64,000 nucleotides of DNA, taken from NCBI RefSeq assembly GCF_900499075.1, contig NZ_UIHC01000002.1, positions 62,001 to 126,000 on the forward strand, written 5' to 3'. Shown here in pieces: positions 15,028 through 63,268 of this stretch. Numbering within the stretch: the first letter of the stretch is position 1; every line of letters starts with the position of its first letter. Both the position numbers and the translations under genes were made by a program. The notes under the pieces are model-generated. The model saw nothing but the letters and a program-made list of their open reading frames with translations, searched no databases and was not told where the DNA came from. The stretch is from Roseinatronobacter ekhonensis. GTDB taxonomy: Bacteria; Pseudomonadota; Alphaproteobacteria; Rhodobacterales; Rhodobacteraceae.

Positions 15028-15228
15028 GAAGGTTCTACGACAGATTCACTTTGGTCCGGGTGCGAAAGCCCCCGGTTAAAATGGGAACGCGGTGCGCGGC
15101 CTTCGGGCGGCAACTCCGCGACTGCCCCCGCAACTGTAAGCGGCGAGCAATGTCGGAATATGCCACTGTGGTGCAAACCACGGGAAGGCCCGGCAAAGCA
15201 GCGACCCGCAAGTCAGGAGACCTGCCAA
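15028..15228 (+). promoter_or_regulatory. Cobalamin (AdoCbl) riboswitch
   Basis: The leader contains the cobalamin riboswitch landmarks in order: GGTGCGAAAGCC near 15060, AATGGGAA at 15080-15087, CCGCAACTGTAAGCGG at 15127-15142, TGCCACTG at about 15161, and the B12 box AAGTCAGGAGACCTGCC at 15210-15226. It lies 150 bases ahead of btuB. When bound to cobalamin, this class represses the downstream genes. All genes to tonB overlap or nearly overlap, so it probably governs the whole uptake operon. The rest of the 370-base thiN-btuB gap (15229-15375) would hold the expression platform. Confidence 0.95.
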
Positions 15229-15375
15229 AGTGTTCACCCTATCCCGGCGCGGGCGGCGCTGCGGGTAACGGTTTTACCGTAGCGGTGGCATCTTTCGCCG
15301 TCTGCGGTGCGTTGCACCTGCACGACATTCTCTACTTTCGGGTCGCTGATGCGGCCCTTGCATAGGTGCAGACCC

Positions 15376-61685: not shown

Positions 61686-62414
61686 ATGACATGGCGCGTC
61701 ATCTGGCTTGGGCTGGCGATCTGGCTGGCGGTACTCGCGCCCGCGGCTGCGCAGGATATCAGCCTGCAATTCGGCGAGGATGGCTCGCTCGCGCTGCGGG
61801 GCGCGCAGCTTGTGGTGCTGTTGACCCTGCTCAGTCTGGTGCCCGGAATTCTGGTCATGGTGACGTGTTTTCCGTTTATCGTGACCGTTCTGGCCATCCT
61901 GCGCCAAGCCTTGGGGCTTATGCAGTCGCCGCCCAATATGTTGATGGTGTCGCTCGCGTTGTTCCTGACTTATTTCGTGATGGAGCCGGTCTTTGTCGCC
62001 GCATGGCAAAACGGGATCGTGCCATTGAACGACGGAGAAATCGCGCTGGAAGAGGCGTTCGTGCGCGCGGCAGACCCGTTCCGGCAGTTCATGGCGGCGC
62101 GGGTCGATGCGGCCACGTTCGACAGCCTTGCCAGCCTACGCCCGACACCGCAGAGCGCGCTCGGGCCGGATGCGCCGTTATCGGTGTTGGTGCCGTCCTT
62201 CATGCTCAGCGAAATCGCGCGGGCGTTCCAGATCGGTTTCCTGATCTTCCTACCATTCCTGATCATAGATCTGGTCGTTGCGGCGGTGTTGATGTCAATG
62301 GGGATGATGATGGTGCCACCTGCCATTGTCTCGCTGCCGTTCAAGCTGTCGTTTTTCGTGATTGCGGATGGCTGGCGGCTGATTTCCGAAGCGCTGGTGC
62401 GCAGCTACTTCTGA
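61686..62414 (+). CDS. fliP: Flagellar type III export protein FliP
   Basis: Core channel subunit of the flagellar export gate, 242 residues. A cleavable signal (LGLAIWLAVLAPAAAQ) precedes the family motifs: LLTLLSLVPGILVMVTCFPFIVTVLAILRQALG, QSPPNMLMVSLALFLTYFVM, VLVPSFMLSEIARAFQIGFLIFLPFLIIDLVVA and MMMVPPAIVSLPFKLSFFV. It is intact. It ends 25 bases before the hairpin array, whose first hairpin can terminate it. Confidence 0.97.
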   Translation: MTWRVIWLGLAIWLAVLAPAAAQDISLQFGEDGSLALRGAQLVVLLTLLSLVPGILVMVTCFPFIVTVLAILRQALGLMQSPPNMLMVSLALFLTYFVMEPVFVAAWQNGIVPLNDGEIALEEAFVRAADPFRQFMAARVDAATFDSLASLRPTPQSALGPDAPLSVLVPSFMLSEIARAFQIGFLIFLPFLIIDLVVAAVLMSMGMMMVPPAIVSLPFKLSFFVIADGWRLISEALVRSYF

Positions 62415-62439: not shown

Positions 62440-62475
62440 GGCGGTAGTCCCAGGGAGGAGGAAGGGACTACCGCC
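62440..62475 (-). ncRNA. CCTCCTCCC hairpin sRNA, unit F, doubling as bidirectional terminator
   Basis: A perfect twelve-base stem (GGCGGTAGTCCC at 62440-62451, GGGACTACCGCC at 62464-62475) with the nine-mer at 62453-62461. Five T residues follow on the minus strand and GATTTTT follows on the plus strand. It can therefore end both the sRNA transcript and the fliF-fliP transcript. Confidence 0.85.
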
Positions 62476-62484
62476 GATTTTTGC

Positions 62485-62512
62485 ACGACCCTAGGGAGGA
62501 GGAGGGGGCCGT
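62485..62512 (-). ncRNA. CCTCCTCCC hairpin sRNA, unit E
   Basis: A seven-base stem (ACGACCC at 62485-62491, GGGCCGT at 62506-62512). The one odd pair is A.C on plus but G.U on minus. The loop nine-mer is at 62494-62502. Confidence 0.75.
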
Positions 62513-62542
62513 CACAATGTCATAGGCCAAAGGCCCGGTCTT

Positions 62543-62578
62543 GGGGCACCGGCAGGGAGGAGGAGGCCGGTATGCCCC
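62543..62578 (-). ncRNA. CCTCCTCCC hairpin sRNA, unit D
   Basis: An eleven-base-pair stem (GGGGCACCGGC at 62543-62553 with GCCGG-TA-TGCCCC at 62566-62578) with a two-base bulge. The 12-base loop holds the nine-mer at 62555-62563. Confidence 0.8.
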
Positions 62579-62579
62579 G

Positions 62580-62612
62580 CGATCGCCCTCGGGAGGAGGA
62601 TAAGGGCGGTCG
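62580..62612 (-). ncRNA. CCTCCTCCC hairpin sRNA, unit C
   Basis: A nine-base stem (CGATCGCCC at 62580-62588, GGGCGGTCG at 62604-62612). It has one pair that is T.G on the plus strand and A.C on the minus strand. The loop nine-mer is at 62591-62599. Confidence 0.75.
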
Positions 62613-62655
62613 TCTTGTGCCGCGATCCGGGTTGACCGTCCGGCGCGGTATTTGT

Positions 62656-62690
62656 GGCGGCGACCGAGGGAGGAGGAAACAGTCGCCGCC
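62656..62690 (-). ncRNA. CCTCCTCCC hairpin sRNA, unit B
   Basis: A perfect nine-base stem (GGCGGCGAC at 62656-62664, GTCGCCGCC at 62682-62690) with a 17-base loop holding the nine-mer at 62668-62676. Confidence 0.8.
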
Positions 62691-62694
62691 GTAA

Positions 62695-62723
62695 TCAAGC
62701 CCCGGGAGGAGGGTAGGGCCTGA
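62695..62723 (-). ncRNA. CCTCCTCCC hairpin sRNA, unit A (nearest DUF1127 gene)
   Basis: An eight-base stem: TCA-A-GCCC (62695-62702) with GGGC-C-TGA (62716-62723). The odd pair is A.C on the plus strand but G.U on the minus strand, which favours minus-strand RNA. The loop holds the nine-mer at 62704-62712. Confidence 0.75.
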
Positions 62724-62726
62724 AAC

Positions 62727-62939
62727 TCAATTCTCGAACGCGGCCTCGTAGGCGAGGCGCGAAATCATGGAACGGCTGATGCCCAGATCATCCAGCTCGC
62801 GCGTGGTGAGGGCATTCAGTTCCGCGTAGGTTCTGTTATAAACGCGACGACGCGCAAACGCGTCGGCAATGCGACCGAACAACCCGCCAAATGGCGCACG
62901 AAAGCTGCCGATGCCGATATTTTCTGCAATATGTGCCAT
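62727..62939 (-). CDS. DUF1127 small protein (CcaF1-like)
   Basis: A 70-residue basic protein. The DUF1127 (YjiS-like) motif fills the second half: RRRVYNRTYAELNALTTRELDDLGISRSMISRLAYEAAF. The N-terminal half (GSFRAPFGGLFGRIADAF) is amphipathic. In Rhodobacter sphaeroides the DUF1127 protein beside the CcsR sRNAs (CcaF1) is stress-induced and affects RNA maturation and turnover. The same role here is inferred from context. The ATG at 62939 has AAAGGTG upstream. The sRNA array starts right behind its stop. Confidence 0.93.
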   Translation of the reverse strand: MAHIAENIGIGSFRAPFGGLFGRIADAFARRRVYNRTYAELNALTTRELDDLGISRSMISRLAYEAAFEN

Positions 62940-63268
62940 TATGATGCACCTTTTGTTTCGCTGTGGCCGTCGCGGCCCTGTTGAAGTTGAAGATAGGGAA
63001 TTGCTGCGCTTGCACAATGCAGAATGCTGCAATGCCGCTATGCGCTAGAGTCATGCTTACGCTAGGTAAATTTGCAATCTGCACCATCATTGTGCGGGGC
63101 GCGCCGTCATTTGACAAAAACCTGTGCATTCAATGTCTGATTTCGGTGTCATGGCCCGGAATTCGGGCCTTTGGTGTGCCGGCGCCGCTTTGTGCCGACC
63201 ACGGAGATGGCCCCTTGTCGCACGCCCTGCGATGCCCATTTATTCACCAAGTAAGTATGGAGCACCTT
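62940..63268. other. Intergenic region between DUF1127 and mrp genes
   Basis: About 330 bases between divergent genes with no plausible ORF. It contains the DUF1127 promoter candidate, a TTGACA at 63111-63116 that could be the mrp -35 element, and an inverted repeat GGCCCG...CGGGCC at 63153-63169 inside the probable mrp leader. GGAG at 63259-63262 is the mrp ribosome site. Confidence 0.5.
62991..63017 (-). promoter_or_regulatory. Candidate RpoH-like promoter of the DUF1127-sRNA transcript
   Basis: On the minus strand TTGTGC (63017-63012) and CCCTATCT (62998-62991) are 13 bases apart, roughly fitting heat-shock sigma promoters (CTTGAA-like and CCCAT-like elements). The -35 match is weak. It lies about 50 bases before the DUF1127 ATG. 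Confidence 0.35.

Follow-up and report, generated by a model that had tools for sequence, protein, structure and literature searches.

The locus analysed here has its closest described relatives among the CcsR (cuckoo) RNAs of Rhodobacter sphaeroides. In the parts of the reports cited here, ccaF1 and CcsR form a single operon with an RpoHI/HII promoter, RNase E processing and a terminator, and RNase E cleavage of the ccaF1-CcsR RNA is aided by the DUF1127 protein CcaF1 (PMC10253847, PMC3320616), an RNA-binding protein encoded in the same RNA as CcsR (PMC10253847). The CcsR RNAs are reported to bind Hfq and to have the flhR mRNA as a target (PMC8307010). One CcsR RNA, RS0680a, has two stem-loops with an anti-Shine-Dalgarno (aSD) motif in each (PMC3927594 section 2.7). 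Such aSD loops are described in SmelA075/A099 as well (PMC3927594), and NfeR1, the alpha-r14 RNA of Sinorhizobium meliloti, has the same loops (PMC10746234).

A comparable array lies near the end of the window, the 64-kb stretch of Roseinatronobacter ekhonensis DNA that was analysed as a whole. The motif CCTCCTCCC occurs there exactly six times on the minus strand (lower coordinates 62453, 62494, 62555, 62591, 62668, and 62704) and nowhere else in the 64 kb; shuffled sequences had a mean of 0.32 occurrences, and none of 100 reached six. The whole genome holds 14 occurrences, six of them in this array. The 306-nt array region folds at -135.8 kcal/mol (z = -6.30), a value that 0 of 100 shuffles equalled, and the MFE fold places all six motifs at the apex of six different stems, so that the trait of the CcsR/cuckoo family, CCUCCUCCC in hairpin loops, is found in six of six hairpins. 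The main stems run from 62723 to 62440, and the exact coordinates and the fold thus agree with the earlier note, which had described six hairpins within 284 bases sharing an identical loop on different stems. Its placement of the array three bases behind a DUF1127 gene was also correct: the gene ends at 62727, and pairing in the first main stem begins at 62723, three bases past the stop codon, with two weak outer pairs extending it to 62726. Besides the six motif-bearing hairpins, the MFE fold contains two without the motif, and the final hairpin, with a stem of 12 bp, runs into TTTTT (Table 1). An Rfam search at the gathering threshold returned no family at the array; its sole match in the window was a cobalamin riboswitch at 15035-15243 (133.7 bits). 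The gene upstream of the array is one of four DUF1127 matches in this genome. The convergent neighbour on the other side is fliP (61686-62414), and a divergent iron-sulfur ATPase gene (PF10609 and PF01883) starts at 63257.

Table 1. Features of the putative DUF1127-array operon, in window coordinates
Feature	Position	Strand	Basis
TTACCTAGCGTAA near-palindrome	63057..63069	-	genus alignment by eye; similar sequence in many congeners
Box 1, AGCGGCATTGCAGCA, PhaR-operator-like	63025..63039	-	one mismatch to CTGCN3GCAG
Box 2, TTGTGCAAGCGCAGCA (TTGTGC-N4-GCAGCA)	63002..63017	-	conserved in promoter alignment
RpoH-like promoter TTGTGC-N14-CCTATCT	62991..63017	-	sequence and genus alignment; -35 formed by the left half of box 2
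CcaF1-like gene for a small DUF1127 protein (70 aa), leading the operon	62727..62939	-	Pfam PF06568, 52.3 bits (cut-off 23.3)
Hairpin 1, unit 1, loop ACCCTCCTCCC	62691..62726	-	fold; covariation helix 1, double changes in 4/8 pairs
Hairpin 2, unit 1, loop TTTCCTCCTCCCT	62656..62690	-	fold; helix 2, double changes in 7/10 pairs, 99.2% of cells paired
Spacer hairpin without motif, units 1/2	62620..62648	-	fold; genus-alignment helix 3, double changes in 1/4 pairs
Hairpin 3, unit 2, loop ATCCTCCTCCC	62580..62612	-	fold; helix 4, the weakest, with 85.0% of cells paired
Hairpin 4, unit 2, loop CTCCTCCTCCCT	62543..62578	-	fold; covariation helices 5-6
Spacer hairpin without motif, units 2/3	62524..62536	-	fold; covariation helix 7
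Hairpin 5, unit 3, loop CCTCCTCCTCCCTA	62481..62517	-	fold; covariation helix 8
Hairpin 6, loop TTCCTCCTCCCT, also intrinsic terminator	62440..62475	-	fold; helix 9, 100% of cells paired

The spacing of the loops (36, 77, 36, 61, and 41) resolves the array into three pairs rather than six equal units, and the two hairpins without the motif separate these pairs. For comparison with R. sphaeroides we turned to its close relative Cereibacter johrii, whose PufL is 100% identical to R. sphaeroides PufL. Its array consists of eight loops in four pairs behind a 71-residue DUF1127 protein, spaced 39, 66, 37, 76, 39, 74, and 39, and a second contig of the same assembly carries the same four pairs at the contig end. 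The contrast between four known copies and six here, as drawn in the earlier note, therefore compared different units: because a CcsR RNA has two loops and C. johrii has four pairs, the window contains three CcsR-type units, fewer than four. Judged by the pair spacing, processing into three two-hairpin sRNAs would be a better expectation than processing into six. Several arrays have lost the alternation and show loops every 36-50 nt, and the pair is therefore not a universal unit. Six exact loops are found at 24 of the 27 loci of the genus, the other three having five and a near match.

The earlier note was right about the CcsR1-4/cuckoo architecture: DUF1127 gene, aSD-loop hairpins and terminator follow one another, and C. 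johrii shows the same layout with eight loops. On these sequence features, the array is a member of the already known CcsR/cuckoo kind. We consider it highly probable that the locus is best explained overall as a CcsR/cuckoo-type sRNA operon of three units with loops that target Shine-Dalgarno (SD) sequences and with a probable coupling to PhaR. An RpoH-type stress promoter would drive transcription of a single RNA that spans both the DUF1127 gene and the array and ends at hairpin 6, and, by analogy with R. sphaeroides, RNase E, aided by the DUF1127 protein, would cut the 3' part into sRNAs, most likely the three predicted above. The exposed CCUCCUCCC loop would mimic the 3' end of 16S rRNA, and such loops could pair with G-rich SD sequences such as GGGAGGAGG, blocking or destabilising the target mRNAs. 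An operator of the PhaR type, in double form, would probably also tie the operon to PHB storage.

Selection on the structure was assessed across the genus. The genus set comprises 27 loci behind DUF1127, including that of the window, drawn from part of the 35 pair-bearing genomes; three of 30 listed loci were dropped, one being a separate cuckoo pair (L085) and two array fragments at contig ends (L094 and L095). The alignment holds 26 congeneric arrays, L096 having been dropped for an inexact sixth loop while L077 and L084 were retained despite one inexact loop each. Its consensus has 62 pairs, 58 of which were counted for covariation after exclusion of the three outer pairs and one more. Scored with a structure that came from the very alignment on which it was counted, 95.3% of the cells were paired, and 34 of the 58 pairs had changed on both sides, in 161 cells compared with 45.9 in shuffles; none of 500 shuffles reached any of five measures. 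When the partners were slid by 1-3 columns, the paired cells fell to 30-55%, although this control leans towards the structure, which came from the same alignment. The proposal that stems change while pairing persists, and that the hairpins are maintained in relatives, thus stands in the comparative alignment, and we conclude from this pattern of changes that the array structure is under selection. A coding or repeat-coding frame was ruled out, since the loop spacing changes modulo 3 between relatives.

The arrays are widespread. In the order sample, 262 of 292 genomes carry at least one loop pair, with up to 20 pairs per genome; in the genus the figure is 35 of 37 genomes, the loop pair search having found none in the other two. 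A DUF1127 gene lies just upstream in 59 of the 70 array or pair loci examined and was not found in 11 (L013, L016, L023-L028, L036, L041, and L043). Three of these (L013, L028, and L041) are stray pairs from genomes whose main array is elsewhere, and L043 has six loops with no DUF1127 found. A family-wide DUF1127 alignment could not seed the contig search. In the 59 loci with DUF1127 upstream, the number of exact loops ranges from 2 to 23, the longest arrays having been deliberately selected. Three arrays of 20-23 loops (L049-L051, from G114, G015, and G152) are built of near-identical repeated units, which suggests recent tandem growth. Some congeners have a second, separate cuckoo hairpin pair, such as L085 (near 1500; G309 contig C15), which has a GCCGCAATGCAGCA box upstream; further separate pairs, as pattern matches only, lie at G292:C76, G295:C1:3658086, and G321:C37.

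These counts bear on what the array does. Were the common loops a selfish or neutral repeat devoid of function, quickly shifting array lengths and near-identical tandem units (G094 and G152) would be easy to understand; the compensatory stem changes in the covariation test contradict this, as do the position behind DUF1127 and the presence of a pair in most genomes of the order sample, and we give such an explanation almost no credence. Very unlikely, too, is that the hairpins serve simply as 3'-UTR stabiliser and terminator of the DUF1127 mRNA, with a loop that has no trans targets. Such a role would fit an array that comes immediately after the stop codon and closes with a terminator hairpin, but a stabiliser needs neither the same nine-base loop on different stems in many genera nor arrays of up to 23 loops. 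Moreover, one genome combines the promoter signature with a hairpin pair and no DUF1127 found between them (L255/L036), and related RNAs work in trans according to the parts of the reports cited (PMC8307010, PMC10746234). Somewhat less improbable, though still unlikely in our judgement, is a decoy or sponge in which the CCUCCUCCC loops would draw off either G-rich RNAs or a protein that binds RNA, be it Hfq or the DUF1127 protein, and dosage, that is loop number, would outweigh the individual sRNAs. A loop that stays constant while its number varies from 2 to 23 speaks for titration, as does the encoding of the RNA-binding CcaF1 in the same RNA (PMC10253847); the flhR mRNA, reported as a CcsR target (PMC8307010), speaks against it. 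A CcsR-type operon releasing SD-targeting sRNAs remains the reading that we prefer.

Possible targets were sought at the other motif sites of the genome. At three of the eight non-array sites a start codon follows the end of the G-rich strand after 1, 4, or 7 bases; the genes concerned are two for ABC-transporter ATPases (L001 and L002) and one for an MFS transporter (L006). With three of eight sites being few and one spacer a single base, these genes are candidate targets only. Four of the remaining sites are in open frames or at contig ends, and one is a stand-alone terminator hairpin (L005, near 1500; G000:C97:74625-74633), which has an 11-bp stem followed by TTTTT, holds the motif partly in the stem and partly in the loop, and stands behind the apparent end of an outer-membrane protein gene. 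The pattern GGGAGGAGN{3,10}ATG matched 18 times in the genome, once antisense in the array, and four times in the reversed control; we discounted this excess as evidence of targeting, since any SD sequence is G-rich.

Upstream of the DUF1127 gene lies a putative promoter module. The RpoH-like element TTGTGC-N14-CCTATCT stands 52-78 bases before the start codon, and TTGTGC or a close form aligns throughout the genus. The strict pattern TTGN3-N11-16-CYTATNT is present in five of the 27 genus loci, the others varying at the -10, mostly in the bases before TAT as judged by eye. Box 2, as TTGTGCN4GCAGC, occurs in 24 of the 27 promoters of the genus set and in 28 of the 32 of the family set, with 0.02 expected per set from dinucleotide shuffles, and by another pattern in 45 of 59 promoters. 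Box 1 starts between about 20 bases (genus) and 29 bases (most of the family) upstream of box 2. Within 250 bases, exact CTGCN3GCAG was found in 9 of the 27 genus promoters (0.42 expected) and in 18 of the 32 from the family (0.34 expected), four of the 18 family matches being too far upstream for box 1. Exact PhaR-like matches at -235 to -250 (L018, L020, L021, L047, and L084) were set aside as probably due to chance. With a spacer of three or four bases and at most one mismatch (CTGCN3-4GCAG), all 59 promoters matched within 250 bases, as compared with 219 of 1180 mononucleotide shuffles; the counts over 59 promoters exclude the 11 loci in which no upstream DUF1127 was found. Searched as one pattern, the two boxes occurred in 55 of 80 genomes and in 0 of 80 for the reversed control. 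At the 30 double-box loci stored, a DUF1127 frame came next in 27, and 25 of those 27 had at least two CYTCCTCCC motifs within 1200 bases. The module marks DUF1127/cuckoo operons across much of the sampled family. Many congeners have a sequence resembling TTACCTAGCGTAA ahead of this promoter, and in several other genera AATAGGTCAG occurs nearby, both as judged by eye. A second DUF1127 gene of the window's genome (G000:C97:7944-8051; L122, L140) has a double-box promoter at C97:7787-7827 and no array.

The conserved double box, lying over an RpoH-like -35, resembles PhaR operators, the boxes in the window itself being imperfect. In the part of the source cited, the PhaR site reported for R. sphaeroides is CTGCNNNGCAG (PMC12542648), the S. 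meliloti sites of mmgR (CAATTGTGCACCGCAGCATTA) and SMa1961 (ATATTGTGCAGTGCAGCAACA) are scored as efficiently bound (PMC12542648 section 18), and the S. meliloti sRNA MmgR is repressed by PhaR (PMC12542648). The PhaR site table of that paper, as far as cited here, names no DUF1127 or cuckoo gene as such, many of its entries being of unknown function. Counting against PhaR, along with this absence, are the mismatch in the window's box 1, the four-base spacer of box 2 and the distribution of the S. meliloti core YGCRNYGCR, which was present in 23 of 27 genus promoters (9.3 expected) but in only 13 of the 32 from the family (8.0 expected). A phaR-phaP-phaC-phaZ cluster is found in the window's genome, with two exact CTGCN3GCAG boxes in the phaP promoter region. 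Boxes of this kind precede phaR by about 670-840 bases, the expected place of the phaP promoter, in five of six named genomes; the sixth (Mameliella) showed no box and had no phasin found next to phaR. Because all 80 genomes searched have phaR, its presence alongside the promoter boxes carried no information.

An aSD-type loop sequence also appears in the gap between phaP and phaR. Of 60 genomes in which the gap before phaR was read, 11 had no adjacent phasin gene by the test used, leaving 49 gaps. CCTCCC occurs in 41 of these (3.4 expected from dinucleotide shuffles), TCCTCCC in 32 (0.7 expected), the full CCTCCTCCC in 11 (0.1 expected), and a hairpin with loop CTCC and a stem scoring 7 or more in 33 (4.7 expected), the expectations being shuffles with no control for what is usual in the 3' UTRs of these bacteria. 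In the copies inspected, the hairpin follows the stop codon of phaP and precedes a separate terminator. That of the window's genome (L121 3678-3819; G000 contig C102) has the six-base loop CCUCCC and, folded with the terminator, gives z = -4.0; one double copy gives z = -8.7. The gap of C. johrii contains AACATCCTCCCAGGG, and a Planktomarina genome bin in which no array pair was found has CACCTCCTCCCTAGG in its gap. In two genomes a loop pair precedes the phaR match, by about 125 bases in G005 and by about 1 kb in G010. The phasin hairpin could pair with the GGGAGG start site of phaR. A specific pairing between each phaP 3' UTR and its own phaR site was not supported: the longest complement averaged 6.46, compared with 6.30 for permuted partners, and 39 of 300 permutations reached the observed mean. 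Among 12 phaR genes that had no phasin next to them in the search, 10 also have GGGAGG, and of the 54 that do have a phasin, 20 combine CCTCCC in the gap with a site lacking GGGAGG; the rule for choosing phaR start codons was simple, and some of the choices are visibly wrong.

Taken together, the double-box promoter and the phasin hairpin would both tie cuckoo-type RNAs to PHB storage. We propose tentatively, and with rather less than even confidence, that the aSD-loop RNAs of Rhodobacteraceae form a PHB-linked regulon, with PhaR acting on the array-operon and phasin promoters and a cuckoo hairpin in the phasin mRNA. PhaR, a repressor drawn off the DNA to PHB granules, would sit on the double TGC/GCA operator that overlaps the stress promoter of the DUF1127-array operon. 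The hairpin in the 3' UTR of the phasin mRNA could be released as an sRNA or act like one, against G-rich ribosome sites including the GGGAGG of phaR. If so, the dosage of this one aSD-loop family would depend on both carbon storage and stress, and the storage state of PHB, as promoter module and phasin hairpin suggest, would control a family of broad translational repressors. Neither the promoter boxes nor the phasin hairpins were met in the parts of the literature searched, a scope that lay outside Reinkensmeier and Giegerich 2015, Billenkamp 2015, and Grutzner 2021. The array itself is one more well-conserved CcsR example, and it corrects how copies are counted.

Compared with described systems, the locus resembles MmgR and PhaR/AniA of S. 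meliloti in being an sRNA gene with a putative PhaR site of similar half-sites (CAATTGTGCACCGCAGCATTA, 'Efficient' in the table cited; PMC12542648). It differs in that MmgR belongs to another RNA family, alpha-r8 (PMC8401924), and in that box 2 of the window has a four-base spacer whereas the S. meliloti PhaR sites have three. With SmelA075/SmelA099 and NfeR1 (alpha-r14) of the same species it shares CCUCCUCCC loops on variable stems (PMC3927594, PMC10746234). Unlike the window array, those RNAs are described as trans-encoded sRNAs of three or four hairpins, and SmelA075 has copies on several replicons; their descriptions, in the parts cited, make no mention of a DUF1127 linkage (PMC3927594, PMC10746234). 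From the CcsR-type array of C. johrii the window differs in having three hairpin pairs instead of four and a DUF1127 protein of 70 residues instead of 71. Also close are CcsR1-4 (RSs0680a-d) and CcaF1 (RSP_6037) of R. sphaeroides: the putative operon of the window has in common with theirs the DUF1127 gene, the aSD-loop hairpins, an RpoH-like promoter sequence and the terminator (PMC10253847, PMC3320616).
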